In this document: one piece after another, positions 10,225-21,070 of the stretch
Numbering within the stretch: position 1 is the first letter of the stretch
How the letters are laid out: the number at the start of each line of letters is the position of its first letter
NCBI GenBank assembly: GCA_005239945.1
Contig: SBAY01000346.1
Coordinates: 1-34,798, forward strand
DNA length: 34,798 bases
From: Nitrospira sp.
GTDB taxonomy: Bacteria > UBA9089 > CG2-30-40-21 > SBAY01
Direction of reading: 5' to 3'
Position numbers and translations under genes: made by a program
Notes under the pieces: model-generated
What the model saw: only the letters and a program-made list of their open reading frames with translations
The model's database searches: none
What the model was told of the DNA's origin: nothing

Positions 10225-11169
10225 TTATCTTTTTTTCATCCGTCTGGATAAACCAAACAATCCCGTTCCAATTCCAAGTAGTAACATTGTCGCCGGTTCT
10301 GGAGTTACCTCACTTCTTGAATCTGTTCGATAGGCGTAGGGTAAAGGACCTAATGACGTATAAGGTTTCATCTGACTATAGTTCCACTGTCTTGCGAATG
10401 AAGGATTCTGACAGAAAGGACCTGAGGTAAAAGGAATATCTGGAGGTGGAGGCGGCGTTAATTCACCAGTCATAATTTTAGCCACTACATCTGCCTTGTT
10501 TCCCGCATAGTAATCATCACCTACTGAAGAGACGCCCCTATTACCTAATGGTAATGCCCCTGTTACACCACATGGAGCCTCTATAGAAAGGAACATTGTC
10601 TCTGGATTGGGCCATGGAGCTATAGCTGCCCAGCTTGAGGTAGTATCCTTTACGCAGTACCATGGAGTAGTTGCTGCATTTTCTACCGAACCTTTTACCA
10701 CACCACCATTATACATATCACTTGCACCTAGCAGTATAAAATGTCTCACATCCGAAAGGATTTGATTTACATCCTCACATTGATACAACATGTTGACTCG
10801 TTGATCAAAATATGGTTTCCCTGGCATAATTTTAGTCTCGATGGTAATAGTTATTTGCTGACGTCCAGTATGACCCATCCACCAACGGTCAATTACTGTC
10901 TTCAAGTATGCATCTGCAGGGTTATATACTGTGTTCCATGAGAGATAGTTAAAGTTAACAGATGTGAATGAATAAACTGAACCTTCAATCCTTGCAAAAT
11001 TTGTATATTCATTCAGCAAGTTAGCTCCTCCAGTATTCATATTACTAACCACACCATATTCATTGACCTCAATTGACACCAAACCATTTGTTAGTGAATA
11101 TGCACCTACTGTTTGTGTAAAAAACAGAAATGCCATTCCTATTACGCTTAGAATAATAATTTTCTTCAT
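10225..11169 (-). CDS. PEP-CTERM sorting domain-containing protein
   Basis: Signal peptide MKKIIILSVIGMAFLFFTQTVGA; C-terminus TPEPATMLLLGIGTGLFGLSRRMKKR (PEP motif, TM helix, basic tail). Confidence 0.9.
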   Translation of the reverse strand: MKKIIILSVIGMAFLFFTQTVGAYSLTNGLVSIEVNEYGVVSNMNTGGANLLNEYTNFARIEGSVYSFTSVNFNYLSWNTVYNPADAYLKTVIDRWWMGHTGRQQITITIETKIMPGKPYFDQRVNMLYQCEDVNQILSDVRHFILLGASDMYNGGVVKGSVENAATTPWYCVKDTTSSWAAIAPWPNPETMFLSIEAPCGVTGALPLGNRGVSSVGDDYYAGNKADVVAKIMTGELTPPPPPDIPFTSGPFCQNPSFARQWNYSQMKPYTSLGPLPYAYRTDSRSEVTPEPATMLLLGIGTGLFGLSRRMKKR

Positions 11170-12197: not shown

Positions 12198-14228
12198 TTA
12201 CCTTGATTTTATGGTTTTTGCTAACGGCTGATAGCTGACAGCTGAACGCTGACATACACCTTTACCTTTGCCTTGCCAAATATACCCCTTAATTTCCTCT
12301 TTTCTTTTTCCATTTCCATTTCCATTTGAATTGTCTAATAATAATTTCGAGAAGTAAAATTCTCTAAGTAATATCCTCCATGTCATTTTAATAATTAATC
12401 CTACATCAAGCCAAAAGGAATATTTTTCAACATATTCTATATCTAAATTTGCCCTTTGAATTTGACCTTCTTCCTTAGAAAGGTCAAGTCCTCTACCATT
12501 ACCATTATCATCGGAGAATCCATACACTATTTCCGGCAGGCAAAAGAGTCCTGGTTTGACATGAATTCTTTTACCTTGCAGACAACCATGTTGAGTAACA
12601 AAAAATGGCCGTTCAGGTCTTGGACTAACTATACTCATATCACCTTTAAGAACACTAACTAATTGTGGTAATTCATCTAAGGCAGTCTTACGCAGTATTT
12701 TTCCGATGAAGGTTACTCTTTCATCACCTTTTGAAGTTAATGTAGGCTTTATAATTATCTCTCCATTTTCATCTGAATAGTTTCTAACTTCTGCACCATT
12801 TTTCATGGTTCTAAATTTATAAAATGTAAAAAATTCTCCATCTTGTCCTACCCTTATTTGTTTAAAAATCACTGGGTCTTTAAAAGCACTTAATTTGATT
12901 GAAAGAGCAATAATTGCCATTAAAGGAGCAAAAACAATCAAACCTATTATTGATACAACAATATCCACAATCCTTTTTCCTTTAGTTCTATAAAATGTAT
13001 CTTGGGGTATTCTTATTTTCTCAATTGGCTCCTTTATCTTTTTCTCTAAGATATCTTCATTCAAACTATCAACTATTTCTTCCCAATTATAATTTCTCTC
13101 TATCATTATCCGTGCATTTGAAGCAATCTTATCCCTTAATGCCTTATTTTTCAATAGTTTTATTACATTTAAAGCAAACTCCCTGGGGGTATCTCCTCTA
13201 AGTACTTCCGTATTATCTTTTGCCTTTATCCCTTCAATAGCTTTCTTAGTAGAAACTACTGAAACACCCATTGCCATTGCCTCTAATATTTTATTTTGGA
13301 CACCTTGAGCAATTCTTAAAGGGACTACACAAACAGTTGCCTCTTCAAAATAAGGTCGGACATCATCCACCTTCCCGGTGACAATTACATTTTTATCTTT
13401 TTTGGCTAATTCTTTAATAGACTTATGTGGATTTCGGCCAACTACATAGAATTGGACATCTTTAATTTCTTTTTTGATTAAAGGAAATATTTCTTCATGA
13501 AAATACTTTACCCCATCAATATTTGCATAATAATCCATTACCCCAGTAAAAATTAAGGTATTATCTGTATTTTTTGGAGATTTACACTTAAAAAATTGAT
13601 AATCTACTCCATTAGGAAGGACATCAATTTTAATACTATCTCCTGTAATTGATTCTAATAGTTCTTTTTCTTGCGAAGATATAACTAAAGTATGATTAAA
13701 TTTTTTAGTTATCATAAGTTCATATTTACGCAATCGCATCCCTTCTATTTTATAGATAAAGGAAAATGGAAATTTAGTTGCCCTGGCATATTTTAACCAT
13801 TTGGCTGAGTCAACATCACACAAATCAAGGATTTTAGGGATATGACCATTTTGACGGACAACATATTGTGCCATTGGCGAAGAATAGACATAAATCAAAT
13901 CAAATTTTTCATTATTTAATCTATCCTTTATTATATTCTTTAATCTTTTAGAATAAAAATAAGGCAAGGATAAAGGGGTGGATGAAAATAATAAGGTCAT
14001 CATACAGGCTAATTTTGCCTTTAGGGGATATTGAAAACTCGTGATAACTTCACATTTAGCCTCTTGTTTTAAAATCTTAGCAGATTTTAATTCTTGCTGC
14101 GAATTGGCTAAACAGATAACGGTGATTTTATGTTTTTTAGCCAGATATTTTATGACATTAAAAGGTCGTAATCTTGCCCCATCATTTGGTGGATAAGGTA
14201 ATCGATGCGTTAAAAATAAAATATTCAT
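12198..14228 (-). CDS. Fusion of a group 1 glycosyltransferase (PEP-CTERM/EpsH1-associated type) and a bacterial sugar transferase (phosphoglycosyl transferase)
   Basis: N-terminus MNILFLTHRLPYPPNDGARLRPFNVIKYLAKKH and GVMDYYANIDGVKYF; C-terminus KGKRIVDIVVSIIGLIVFAPLMAIIAL...VIFKQIRVGQDGEFFTFYKFRTM, DELPQLVSVLKGDMSIVSPRPERP. Confidence 0.88.
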   Translation of the reverse strand: MNILFLTHRLPYPPNDGARLRPFNVIKYLAKKHKITVICLANSQQELKSAKILKQEAKCEVITSFQYPLKAKLACMMTLLFSSTPLSLPYFYSKRLKNIIKDRLNNEKFDLIYVYSSPMAQYVVRQNGHIPKILDLCDVDSAKWLKYARATKFPFSFIYKIEGMRLRKYELMITKKFNHTLVISSQEKELLESITGDSIKIDVLPNGVDYQFFKCKSPKNTDNTLIFTGVMDYYANIDGVKYFHEEIFPLIKKEIKDVQFYVVGRNPHKSIKELAKKDKNVIVTGKVDDVRPYFEEATVCVVPLRIAQGVQNKILEAMAMGVSVVSTKKAIEGIKAKDNTEVLRGDTPREFALNVIKLLKNKALRDKIASNARIMIERNYNWEEIVDSLNEDILEKKIKEPIEKIRIPQDTFYRTKGKRIVDIVVSIIGLIVFAPLMAIIALSIKLSAFKDPVIFKQIRVGQDGEFFTFYKFRTMKNGAEVRNYSDENGEIIIKPTLTSKGDERVTFIGKILRKTALDELPQLVSVLKGDMSIVSPRPERPFFVTQHGCLQGKRIHVKPGLFCLPEIVYGFSDDNGNGRGLDLSKEEGQIQRANLDIEYVEKYSFWLDVGLIIKMTWRILLREFYFSKLLLDNSNGNGNGKRKEEIKGYIWQGKGKGVCQRSAVSYQPLAKTIKSR
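12220..12254. repeat. Five tandem heptamers at the 3' end of the fusion gene
   Basis: GCTAACG GCTGATA GCTGACA GCTGAAC GCTGACA on the + strand. Confidence 0.9.
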
Positions 14229-15756: not shown

Positions 15757-18700
15757 TTATTTAACTATCCCTAATTTACCTTTTTTTATATCTCCTCTAT
15801 CATTAGTAATTATATAGATGTAAATACCAGAAGCTACTTTTTCATCTTTAACATCCCAATATTTATCTTCCCCTGATAGAGATTTTTCTTCCCAGACTAA
15901 TTCCCCGGCAATATTAAATACCTTAATTCTTGAGTTAGTAGTTAAACCTATAAAACTTACCTTCTCTTTAGCTGGATTAGGATATGCAATAGTCATTTCA
16001 TTAAATGATTTTCCATTTACCATAATGTTACTCTCTCCATAAATTAGATTAAATACATCTCCCTCTCTATTTACAAATTTTGTATCTCTAACATCAAAAG
16101 TTATCTTTGTATCCCCTGATTTCTTAGCAACAAAGGGGATTAATGCTAGCTCTCCAGAACCAGAAATAGAATTGATAATAGTAGGGTCCAGTCCAAAACA
16201 AAATCTTATTTCACCCTTAATATTATCACCATCCTGATTAATTATAAAAATATCATTTAGAGGTGGGAAGTTACCTGCGCTAATTTGAATTCCTGGAGTA
16301 TTGGGTTTACAATCAACTAATTCAAGTTTCTGCGGGTCAAACTTAATATAACATTGTCCTCCTATAAAATTGTTTCCAGATAATTTAACTTGCAAAATAA
16401 AGTTTTCCCCAACTTCAACAATTTTTACAGAAGGTAAAATACTTAATTCTATAGGCAAGATAAGTTTTTGAGTAGATTTAGATAAAGCCCTTGATTTAGA
16501 AGCAACTTTACCAAAATTTACATAAAAAATAGGATAATCCAATATGTCTATTATACTATCTCCTGTCCAATCAGCTCTTGGATCCCAATTATTATCTCCC
16601 CAGGTAGAGCCAAAGGCTAAGTAGTAAATTGGGTAATCAAGAATATCTACAACTCCATCAGAATTTGCATCGCCATTAAGTAATGTCCTGGTTGCTAATC
16701 TTATAATCATATTAGATGTAACTACAACATTTGTCCAGGTAGCAGATGATGCCCCTGGGATTTTAGCGGTAAGTGTATAAGTTTGTGGGGAAAGATTTTT
16801 AATGATAAAATAACCGATATCGTCAGTAAAGACTTTCTGATTTGATTCAACTACTGTTATTTCAATATCTCTATGAGTATTTATATTATTTATCCTATGA
16901 GGAATATCTAATAAAGCATAGCCTTCTATATCTCCTAATGGTAAAATTGTAATAGTTCCATTAGAGATAACAAAAGGAATATCGCCATAAGTACTTACCA
17001 TCTTAGTTTGGTAAAGTGTTTCAAGAGAAAAATAAATAGTAGAGGTACCTACATCTTTTGCTAAAAAAGTAATATAGGCGATATCTCCACTACCAGAAAG
17101 AGGTTCATTTTGCGGAGGAATAACAAATATATATTCTATTGTTCCCACAAGATTATTTACATCATTTTTTATTATTGATACATTTTCTGGTAAAAATGGT
17201 CCTTTACTTATTTGTATTCCCGTATTTCCTGAATTACTATCTTGAACTTCTAAATATTGCCTATCAAATTTAAGATAGATTTGTGCTCCAATTAAGGCTT
17301 TAATTCCAATAATTTTTATTGCTAAGGTAAAAGTAGCATTTTTAATTTCCTGAGTTATTTCAGGGTCAATCATTAAATTTGTTTGATTAGCAACAGCTGT
17401 AAATTCTATTGGGGATCCGGATAGAGTCTCATTTACTGCAGTTACTCTATATGTTCCCGGGATATCACCCAGGGTAAGGTAAGTTAATGCATTCCCTTGA
17501 GTATCCGTAATTGATGAAGTTACAGATAAGGTTTGTCCATTAGCATTAACTGGAGTTGCCTTAATCTTAAATTCAACATTTACATTGGAGATAGGATTAT
17601 TATACTCATCCGTTACTATAACTACTAATGGTAAAGCCAGGGTAGTATTTATAACTCCTGATTGGTTATCTCCACTAAATAAAGTAATAGTAGAAGGAGT
17701 TCCTGGTGTTACAATTATCTCAGCAGAAGCATTAATTAAGCCATAACTTGCTATTATTGAACCAGAGCCAGGAGTAGTATCAGCAGTAAATATAGTTGCT
17801 GTAGCAGTAGTAATAGATAAAGTTCCTATTTCTCCAATAATTTGCCAGGTAAAGACTAAATTTGGAATTTGGTTATTATACTGGTCATAACCAATGGCTG
17901 TAAATTCACAGGAAGTATTTGCTTTCAGGTGAATATTATCAGGATTTACAACTATCTTTGTTAATGTTGATTGAGTGCCCGCTTGCAATTGGTACTCGGT
18001 CCATAAATATACCTGATTTGTCCTTCCAGTCCATCCATGAATCTTAGTTTCTGAATTTGGGTATTTTCGTGGATGATAGTTTATTTTAGACCTTTGCGTT
18101 GAATTTAACAGGGTACCTCCTGGCTCCTGCCAATAGAATGTGCCATCTCTAAATAGCTGTCGTGCCAGGTTTAAATACTCATCATCATTTGTTAAAAGAT
18201 AACAATAAGCAAAGAGGTTCGTGAAGAAAAAATCATAAATTACTTCTCCATTGGTATTATTGCTTCCTTCTATCCATGTCATTGGTGTTTGAAACGGCAT
18301 ATATTGAATTTCTACAGAATATCCTCCAGAAAGACCGTATCCCTTTAACCAATTTGCCATTCTTAAGAGCAGCTCTTTCAACTCTTCATCTTTAGTCAGG
18401 TAATGTAATTCAATTAAAGGGTCTATAACATAACTATAAAGATTCATATATTGAGTAGTGGTGTCAGGTTCACTATATCCCCAATACCCTCTTTTTCCTC
18501 TTTTAACTTCCATCCAGAGCAGACTATTTTTAGCAATAGATTTAGCTAAATTTAAATAATCATTATTACCAGTTACCCGATATAAATTTATTAAGTTTAA
18601 TATACTCCAGCCTTGATTTCTAATTTCGTAGTGCTCAACATTTGTCTGTTCAACCTGATATATTTTCCTCCAGTAATTAATAACTGCTTGCCCATTCTTT

Positions 18701-20637
18701 AAAGCCGCCTCCAATGCCCTTTTATCCCCTGTGAGAAGATAGTCCAGAATTAATCCGTTATTCCATGTGTGTGTTGGCTTTGGAGTATATTCTCGGTATG
18801 GATACTCCCTTAAGTCACCATGCTCACCTTTTTCATATCGCTGCCAGTATCCAAACCAGAGACTATTAGACTCGTTACCTATGGATTGATATTGGTCAAT
18901 ATCATATCTATGTCTGCACATTTCAAGTCCAAGATCAAAAAATCCATAATCTTGTGTTCTTATAAAATGTAATAACATAGAATATGGCCAATCATAATGT
19001 AGTGAGCACCATCCATCATACCAGGGTAAGTCTCCAAAACTAAACCATCCATACCAATCAATATTATAATTTACATAGGTTGTGCTCCGATTTTCTCTTT
19101 GTGTATATATTGTCAACGGAGGAATATCATCTTGCCATTCTGAATCTTCAAGATGTATCTTACAGCGTTGTAATTGTTCAAATCGGGCTAATGCTTCATT
19201 TATCTCTGGAGTATCATGGGTTAATCCTGCTGGTGCAATCATCCCTAATGCCTCTGAATCTACATACCAATTAGAAGGGGCAAGTCCAAATAAAGGGGTA
19301 TTGAATGCCTTAATTAAATTTTGCGTCTTGACTAAGTCTTTACTACCTGAATAAAAACGATAGAAGATTTCATAAGTTTTGTATCTTCCTCCTTCAAATT
19401 GATAATTGCCGGCTTGTTGCCCGGTAGAATTATGAGGCCAATAATCCTCTTTAGGCCATAACCCTAATGAAAGTTTGTTATTACTAAAAGAAATTGACTT
19501 GTCATAGTTTTGCCAGAAGTTTTTAATACATACTGTTACTCCAAAATTGCCATCATTTATATCTACCCACCCAGTTGTTCTACTTCCATTTCCTACTTGA
19601 ATATCATTCTTTTTAATAGTGTAGAAAAAGTTTTTAGATTCATCTTTTTCGTCTATTATTTGATGCCCTTGATATAAATAAAAAATCTCATTATTATTGT
19701 AAGTCTCCGTATAATTATCCGTAGATATATCTTTATTTGCACCTGTTTTAAGATTTAAATTCATAGATAGTTCGTCAAAGTATAACCATTCTTCTTTAAG
19801 AGATTCAGCATGGTCTTTATATAACCCATTATTTTCTAATGTGTAAAAAACCTTTAGATAGTCTTTTCCAGCATAGGCATGGATTCTAATTGTATAGGCA
19901 ATATATTCTGGCAATATAGTCTCATCATATTTTTTATATCCACCTTTTATTTTAATTACTACCCTGGTTGGTCCTTCCTCTTCTATCTCCACTTCTTTTG
20001 GGGCTATGAGGCTGGAAGAAAAAGTGCCGGGATAATTCCCATATAATCCATCTATTGGACCGCCAATAAGGCAGTCTGAAATAATAATGTTATTGTCTAA
20101 CCTATCAGGTTCAACTATCTTTTCTGAATCCTCAAAAGATTTGTTATTGTTCTTATCAATCCATACCCCATCAAATAAATTAAAATGCTCTTTGCTGATT
20201 ATAAATTTCATTGGACCGGTAATCACCGTAGTATTTGTAGCAAATTCTGTTACTTTTAACTCAGAATCAGGAGTATTCCCAGCACCATCGGTAAGGTAAT
20301 AGATCTTTTGTTCCTCCTGGGTTACATCTGCCTGGAAATCCACTAATAGCCATTTAACACTTCCATCATCCCAATTGGCTAATGATTTAAATTGAGCCAG
20401 AGCCGTTCCTCCAGATAAAGAAACTGCCTGATCTGAAGAAAGTATCCCTTTAGGAAAAGGAATACCACAGGTTACTGGTTCATTTATTCGTGGTACCCCT
20501 ACCCGTTCTTTAACAATAAGAGGGATATTAAACGCCTCTAAGGAATTGTTAGAAAAAGATAAAATAAGGGTCAATATAGTTAGTAACTTTAACCACTTAT
20601 ACATTTTCTCTCCCCTACCTTTTAAATATGTAATCAT
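15757..20637 (-). CDS. Large secreted protein: PcRGLX/YetA-like lyase region, Ig-like domains, cohesin, carboxypeptidase-regulatory-like, dockerin, cohesin, C-terminal sorting-like domain
   Basis: Signal peptide MYKWLKLLTILTLILSFSNNSLEA; VGVPRINEPVTCGIPFPKGIL and WDDGSVKWLLVDFQADV; dockerin LLNGDANSDGVVDILDYPIYYLAFGSTWGDNNWDPRADWTGDSIIDILDYPIFYVNFGKV; two cohesin-like segments; tail YPNPAKEKVSFIGL...GIYIYII...GKLGIVK. Confidence 0.8.
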   Translation of the reverse strand: MITYLKGRGEKMYKWLKLLTILTLILSFSNNSLEAFNIPLIVKERVGVPRINEPVTCGIPFPKGILSSDQAVSLSGGTALAQFKSLANWDDGSVKWLLVDFQADVTQEEQKIYYLTDGAGNTPDSELKVTEFATNTTVITGPMKFIISKEHFNLFDGVWIDKNNNKSFEDSEKIVEPDRLDNNIIISDCLIGGPIDGLYGNYPGTFSSSLIAPKEVEIEEEGPTRVVIKIKGGYKKYDETILPEYIAYTIRIHAYAGKDYLKVFYTLENNGLYKDHAESLKEEWLYFDELSMNLNLKTGANKDISTDNYTETYNNNEIFYLYQGHQIIDEKDESKNFFYTIKKNDIQVGNGSRTTGWVDINDGNFGVTVCIKNFWQNYDKSISFSNNKLSLGLWPKEDYWPHNSTGQQAGNYQFEGGRYKTYEIFYRFYSGSKDLVKTQNLIKAFNTPLFGLAPSNWYVDSEALGMIAPAGLTHDTPEINEALARFEQLQRCKIHLEDSEWQDDIPPLTIYTQRENRSTTYVNYNIDWYGWFSFGDLPWYDGWCSLHYDWPYSMLLHFIRTQDYGFFDLGLEMCRHRYDIDQYQSIGNESNSLWFGYWQRYEKGEHGDLREYPYREYTPKPTHTWNNGLILDYLLTGDKRALEAALKNGQAVINYWRKIYQVEQTNVEHYEIRNQGWSILNLINLYRVTGNNDYLNLAKSIAKNSLLWMEVKRGKRGYWGYSEPDTTTQYMNLYSYVIDPLIELHYLTKDEELKELLLRMANWLKGYGLSGGYSVEIQYMPFQTPMTWIEGSNNTNGEVIYDFFFTNLFAYCYLLTNDDEYLNLARQLFRDGTFYWQEPGGTLLNSTQRSKINYHPRKYPNSETKIHGWTGRTNQVYLWTEYQLQAGTQSTLTKIVVNPDNIHLKANTSCEFTAIGYDQYNNQIPNLVFTWQIIGEIGTLSITTATATIFTADTTPGSGSIIASYGLINASAEIIVTPGTPSTITLFSGDNQSGVINTTLALPLVVIVTDEYNNPISNVNVEFKIKATPVNANGQTLSVTSSITDTQGNALTYLTLGDIPGTYRVTAVNETLSGSPIEFTAVANQTNLMIDPEITQEIKNATFTLAIKIIGIKALIGAQIYLKFDRQYLEVQDSNSGNTGIQISKGPFLPENVSIIKNDVNNLVGTIEYIFVIPPQNEPLSGSGDIAYITFLAKDVGTSTIYFSLETLYQTKMVSTYGDIPFVISNGTITILPLGDIEGYALLDIPHRINNINTHRDIEITVVESNQKVFTDDIGYFIIKNLSPQTYTLTAKIPGASSATWTNVVVTSNMIIRLATRTLLNGDANSDGVVDILDYPIYYLAFGSTWGDNNWDPRADWTGDSIIDILDYPIFYVNFGKVASKSRALSKSTQKLILPIELSILPSVKIVEVGENFILQVKLSGNNFIGGQCYIKFDPQKLELVDCKPNTPGIQISAGNFPPLNDIFIINQDGDNIKGEIRFCFGLDPTIINSISGSGELALIPFVAKKSGDTKITFDVRDTKFVNREGDVFNLIYGESNIMVNGKSFNEMTIAYPNPAKEKVSFIGLTTNSRIKVFNIAGELVWEEKSLSGEDKYWDVKDEKVASGIYIYIITNDRGDIKKGKLGIVK

Positions 20638-21041: not shown

Positions 21042-21070
21042 ATTATACCACAAAAATATTGATTTGTCAA
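21042..21070 (-). promoter_or_regulatory. Consensus sigma70 promoter upstream of the large lyase gene
   Basis: - strand TTGACA (rc 21065-21070), 17-bp spacer ending TGG, TATAAT (rc 21042-21047). Confidence 0.75.

Follow-up and report, generated by a model that had tools for sequence, protein, structure and literature searches.

The window analyzed here is the whole 34,798-nucleotide stretch of DNA, and it contains an uninterrupted minus-strand open reading frame (ORF) for a predicted secreted protein. The ATG of M12 follows a ribosome site (AGGGGAG), placing the probable translation start at position 20604. The domain order given in the first-pass annotation (PcRGLX-like, Ig, cohesin, X, dockerin, cohesin, tail) was recovered with Pfam and with window-free profiles (i.e., built from other family proteins with the window protein left out, which avoids circularity), and its coordinates were off by no more than about 15 bases. 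The features are, from upstream to downstream:

21042–21070, minus strand: candidate sigma70-type promoter, perfect TTGACA-17-TATAAT with TG (consensus match only)
15757–20637, minus strand: whole ORF, 1626 aa
20604, minus strand: likely start M12
20530–20604, minus strand: signal peptide MYKWLKLLTILTLILSFSNNSLEA (from sequence; inferred cleavage site)
20326–20493, minus strand: PcRGLX N-terminal RIFT barrel (PF19501; Pfam 1.2e-7; profile A7 against PDB 5xq3, 1.3e-12)
19831–19998, minus strand: PcRGLX central beta-sandwich, core match (PF21345; Pfam 1e-9; present in 4/4 homologues)
18517–18765, minus strand: alpha-toroid, GH127/six-hairpin-like (PF07944; Pfam 4.2e-7, over cut-off; weak PDB six-hairpin/GH76 matches)
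17410–17658, minus strand: Big_1 bacterial Ig-like domain (Pfam 2.5e-9, over cut-off)
16939–17388, minus strand: cohesin A (Pfam; window-free profile 9e-21; AF2 pLDDT ~90; Foldseek matches to type II cohesins)
16681–16935, minus strand: X module, CarboxypepD_reg-like, ~80 aa (Pfam ~2e-6, below cut-off; aligns with X-dockerins 4wi0_B and 2b59_B)
16504–16689, minus strand: dockerin with two F-hand repeats, DILDYPIYY / DILDYPIFY (Pfam 0.058; window-free profile 1.8e-15; 2y3n_B 2.5e-16)
16459–16503, minus strand: dockerin–cohesin B linker, 15 residues (from sequence)
16012–16458, minus strand: cohesin B (Pfam; window-free profile 2e-22; AF2 of dockerin–cohesin B, pLDDT 91.6, pTM 0.85)
15760–15993, minus strand: T9SS-like sorting tail, Por_Secre_tail, YPNP...GKLGIVK (Pfam 3.2e-8, over cut-off)

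The promoter-like element at 21070–21042 (minus strand), with its extended −10, lies just upstream of the gene, and another perfect TTGACA-17-TATAAT with extended −10 lies just downstream (15719–15691, minus strand). Elsewhere in the window, an apparent fusion ORF (12198–14228, minus strand) joins a glycosyltransferase to a bacterial sugar transferase of the exopolysaccharide-priming type, and an exopolysaccharide-like gene cluster extends from this ORF to the end of the window.

The first two domains of the protein head match PcRGLX, both over the Pfam cut-off (PcRGLX_1st and PcRGLX_2nd), as had been anticipated, and over ~210 aa of 5xq3 with a profile that includes three phylum homologues. 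The earlier lyase label fits these two domains but not the alpha-toroid, which in Pfam, PDB, and homologue comparisons resembles GH127/six-hairpin glycosidases rather than the third domain of PcRGLX. We call the head PcRGLX-like and predict that it is polysaccharide-active, with lyase chemistry as a putative assignment; in the cell, it would act on polysaccharide. A second Ig-like stretch lies ahead of the Big_1 domain.

Both cohesins scored over the Pfam cut-off (PF00963, 3e-8), bearing out their original assignment, and both copies combine the cohesin profile with the nine-strand sandwich fold (Pfam, window-free profiles, AF2 with Foldseek). The CarboxypepD_reg match of the X module fell below the cut-off (28.5 vs 32.3 bits), as did Dockerin_1 (14 vs 22.9 bits). 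The proposed dockerin (PF00404) thus failed in Pfam but was recovered by its window-free profile (54 bits) and by single-sequence phmmer, which found solved X-dockerins and dockerins (4wi0_B, 5.7e-4; 2y3n_B, 6.1e-4). Against 300 shuffled copies, the window-free profiles of the dockerin and both cohesins reached at most ~5 bits. A chance match, suggested by Pfam alone, is ruled out by the window-free dockerin profile and the solved dockerins. The F-hand loops DANSDGVVDILD and DWTGDSIIDILD are both of the DxNxDGxxDxxD type, and these two calcium loops, together with the profile, identify a predicted type II-like X-dockerin (PF00404). The cohesin profile (2e-8) and the dockerin profile (2.5e-16) each match their counterpart in a single crystal complex, 2y3n.

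The Por_Secre_tail lies at the very C-terminus of the protein and is the best of 33 T9SS-like tails in the genome. Three PorU-type C25 peptidase genes are present in the same genome; SprA_N was not found there, and gave weak matches on ~2000-aa ORFs in six relatives. Judged from sequence, use of a T9SS-like export pathway is plausible. Another protein in the window (10225–11169, minus strand) ends in a PEP-CTERM-type motif VTPEPATMLLLGIGTGLFGLSRRMKKR, a second type of sorting tail beside the T9SS-like one.

The C-terminal 540 residues of the window protein form a cassette, Coh-(X)-Doc-Coh-tail, that occurs on seven proteins of this 2.94 Mb metagenome-assembled genome (MAG; fragmented, 386 contigs), which encodes 12 Pfam cohesins. 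In addition to the window protein (contig C345), the genome search for dockerin proteins proposed at the outset yielded six further carriers (C242, C108, C22, C324, C346, C364). Their heads differ, with NosD-type beta-helices on C242, C108, C346, and C364, and the C324 cassette has no X module. Contigs C346 and C364 both break off at the dockerin–cohesin B junction, immediately past the dockerin and with the same peptide, KLIFTPEVIDTYV (loci L020 and L017), as expected for assembly breaks in a shared repeat; this is a sign that near-identical cassette copies collapse the assembly here. Every two-repeat dockerin in the genome shares its chain with a cohesin. Among the dockerin-type proteins, just one lacks a cohesin: a CBM60 protein (C111; locus L103, 569–3331, plus strand) with about four tandem dockerin-like repeats, possibly a multivalent client of cohesin A. 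Proteins with comparable tandem repeats occur in L097 and L106. Three proteins (C316, C20 [PEGA], and C78 [subtilase]) have a cohesin and no dockerin.

The phylum of this genome is uncultured, and its relatives include Ca. Desantisbacteria. Cohesins and dockerins are both present in 15/19 phylum genomes and both absent in 4/19 (Fisher test: 2.6e-4, kinship among the 19 genomes being ignored). The arrangement Coh-(X)-Doc-Coh was found in 49 of 68 dockerin ORFs; these were chosen by likeness to the dockerins of this family, so the fraction does not describe dockerins at large. The other 19 comprise six Coh-Doc, five Doc-Coh, five dockerin-only, and three tandem-dockerin layouts, and several incomplete layouts are truncated by contig ends. 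Spacing between cohesin A and the dockerin falls into three main classes (~0, 80, and 272 aa), and that between the dockerin and cohesin B is mostly 10–42 aa. Most carriers are non-catalytic, repeat-rich, adhesin-like proteins (beta-helix, FG-GAP, fn3, PKD, propellers). In a tree of 92 cohesins, the A and B copies form separate, mirrored groups (12 changes vs 31 when shuffled), indicating that cassettes were largely inherited as units, and the two window cohesins sit unplaced on long branches. Family f3 contains many Pfam-recognised dockerins on chains without a Pfam cohesin. A further cassette (L061, G001:C333; contig positions 20623–21699) has two in-frame stops upstream of X-Doc-CohB and is either a decayed copy or a sequencing error.

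Among 386 genomes searched, matches covering most of the cassette came solely from this phylum. Outside it, same-chain layouts were sporadic (L136 in G219, L137 in G076, L139 in G057), dockerins and cohesins on Pleurocapsa and Chloroflexi contigs (L027, L028) mostly occupy adjoining separate genes, and a viral-contig scan with the dockerin alignment returned stray dockerins only. Recurrence rules out an oddity of the window. We regard the cassette as a C-terminal module that is spread across the phylum on proteins otherwise unrelated to each other.

Positions 10 and 11 of each dockerin repeat are established specificity determinants (PMC8063739), and the dual-binding mode rests on repeat symmetry (PMC8063739, PMC5429695). 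Across 53 phylum dockerins, paired repeats within a dockerin match each other at positions 10, 11, 13, 14, 17, and 18 far more often than repeats taken from different dockerins (shuffled null), cohesin-contact positions being 10, 11, 14, 17, and 18. At positions 2, 4, 7, 15, and 19, which vary but do not contact cohesin, these dockerins showed no such excess. Simple shared descent should increase agreement at every variable position, so the observed pattern suggests that both faces have been selected for cohesin binding. Reducing the set to 25, 15, or 11 representatives preserves the core of this symmetry, although position 18 drops out of the smallest set. The dockerins of the phylum look functional, with two near-equivalent cohesin-binding faces.

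The recognition residues of the window dockerin are symmetric (ILPYL / ILPYV), and the seven dockerins of its genome carry mostly different sets. Throughout the phylum, the identity of recognition residues averages 0.24 between chains of the same genome, whereas best matches across genomes average 0.70. Enzyme dockerins that serve one scaffoldin are expected to share recognition residues, and the observed pattern is more in keeping with a private partner for each than with a common scaffoldin. In partial Mantel tests of dockerin recognition residues against cohesin A or cohesin B, there was no preference for cohesin B, and non-contact positions behaved alike.

An AF2 model of CohA-X-Doc-CohB from six sequences gave a good cohesin A (pLDDT ~90) and left the dockerin unresolved (pLDDT ~30, pTM 0.47); its Foldseek matches were type II cohesins and the CipA Coh9-X-Doc chain 4fl4_I. 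Modeled with 23 sequences as a single chain with the natural linker, Doc-linker-CohB reached pLDDT 91.6 and pTM 0.85, and Foldseek again returned cohesins, including 2y3n_A. A freely placed dockerin would limit pTM to ~0.65 (computed), so the model fixes the dockerin on cohesin B and implies a contact between the two. The canonical dockerin-binding face of cohesins is 8-3-6-5.

The layout is real and recurrent, and it probably functions as a docking module. The best explanation, which we consider probable although far from settled, is that the cassette is a self-complementary, calcium-dependent docking module on surface proteins that acts in cis or between sister chains. The protein would be exported and then anchored via its T9SS-like tail. 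Its dockerin, predicted to be genuine and calcium-dependent, would pair with a cohesin from the same type of cassette, cohesin B being best supported by the model. On the cell surface, the dockerin would grip cohesin B of the same or a neighbouring sister chain and cohesin A would remain free to serve as another socket. Each surface protein would thus bring its own plug and sockets and need no separate scaffoldin. Docking would take place in the cell, and binding would link chains of one kind into surface assemblies. The first-pass annotation had preferred such a self-complementary chain to separate scaffoldins and enzymes, a view strengthened by the confinement of two-repeat dockerins to cohesin chains, the two-face dockerin signature, and the confident Doc-CohB model. 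Its further suggestion of a chain-like scaffold fared less well: given the 15-residue linker and a model built from a single chain, a clasp within one molecule accounts for the same data. Against self-docking stand the dockerin left unresolved in the six-sequence model, the Mantel test without a cohesin B preference, and the cohesin-less f3 dockerin proteins. A bolder version, which we think rather doubtful, is that the surface in this phylum is built from dozens of unrelated proteins sharing one exported connector, whose two-faced dockerin bridges cohesins of the same and neighbouring chains while each protein polymerises with its own kind via private residues, i.e., a scaffoldin-free relative of the cellulosome principle.

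Taken alone, the clasp amounts to our best explanation restricted to cis docking: the dockerin would fold onto its own cohesin B, providing a rigid calcium-stabilised stalk or protecting the tail region without chain-to-chain assembly. We judge this possible, if on the unlikely side. It agrees with a confident model that is a single chain with its natural linker, with the short, conserved linker, and with recognition residues private to each cassette; however, characterised cohesin–dockerin pairs work between chains, near-identical dockerin faces would be superfluous in a fixed clasp, and with one dockerin per two cohesins, cohesin A would have no role. A stalk without any binding, in which cohesin folds are beta-sandwich spacers and the dockerin a calcium-binding hinge, as in many modular adhesins, suits the repeat-rich, adhesin-like nature of most carriers and the existence of cohesin-less tandem dockerin repeats (C111). 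Repeat symmetry specific to cohesin-contact positions, the strict co-occurrence of cohesins and dockerins across genomes, and the Doc-CohB pTM of 0.85 make this stalk improbable. Even less credible, and in our view very unlikely, is an ordinary cellulosome part, with the lyase-like protein docking to a separate scaffoldin and its cohesins holding more enzymes. Enzyme, cohesins, and dockerin do share one chain in ScaA and ScaO/ScaP, and three dockerin-less cohesin proteins exist in the genome (C316, C20, C78), but neither a multi-cohesin scaffoldin nor a dockerin-bearing enzyme without cohesins was found in this fragmented MAG of 386 contigs, leading us to reject a classical cellulosome; moreover, carriers are mostly non-enzymes and dockerin recognition residues are not common to different chains.

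Cohesin–dockerin pairs rank with the strongest protein contacts found in nature and are the standard tool for designed assemblies, and what they do away from cellulosomes is still being worked out. A phylum with plug and sockets on the same chain, in fixed order, with chain-specific recognition residues and a secretion tail, offers a clean system for studying non-cellulosomal cohesins, and its cassettes are a source of new, possibly orthogonal pairs that are already fused in a working geometry.

Compared to known systems, cohesin and dockerin on one chain are less exceptional than first implied, since CipA, ScaA, ScaO/ScaP, and ANME proteins have both. The C-terminus of C. thermocellum CipA (Coh9-X-Doc II; 3kcp, 4fl4) shares the cohesin-X-dockerin order of the window protein as well as sequence and fold matches. 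In contrast, nine type I cohesins are present in CipA, whose dockerin binds cohesins carried by other proteins with an anchoring role; CipA has no T9SS-like tail or enzyme head, and no cohesin follows its dockerin. A. cellulolyticus ScaA (GH9, cohesins, X-dockerin) and ScaO/ScaP (peptidase, one cohesin, dockerin) likewise bear a catalytic module on the same chain as cohesin and dockerin, but they belong to a cellulosome with many dockerin enzymes, their dockerin is not sandwiched by cohesins, and their anchoring differs. The closest solved dockerin is that of Cel48 bound to the B. cellulosolvens ScaA cohesin (2y3n), which has the same dual-face symmetry, although its partners are on separate chains. 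Outside cellulolytic bacteria, ANME archaeal proteins combine one dockerin with up to five cohesins (PMC9012536); unlike here, the dockerin clients lie on chains of their own, for example transporter binding proteins (PMC9012536). Cloacimonadota Ca. Stygibacter (PMC8542988) also represents an uncultured Gram-negative phylum with cohesins, dockerins, and T9SS-type anchoring, whereas its system is cellulosome-like, with a CTD-anchored scaffoldin separate from dockerin enzymes (PMC8542988). The loci in other phyla (L136, Coh-Doc-Coh; L137, Doc-Coh-tail; L139, Coh3-Doc-tail) resemble the cassette in having these modules on one chain, but they are sporadic, weakly similar, and, as far as tested, form no recurring set. 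Thus, cohesin and dockerin on one chain were already known, and what is new is the fixed Coh-Doc-Coh sandwich, its tail, and its spread.
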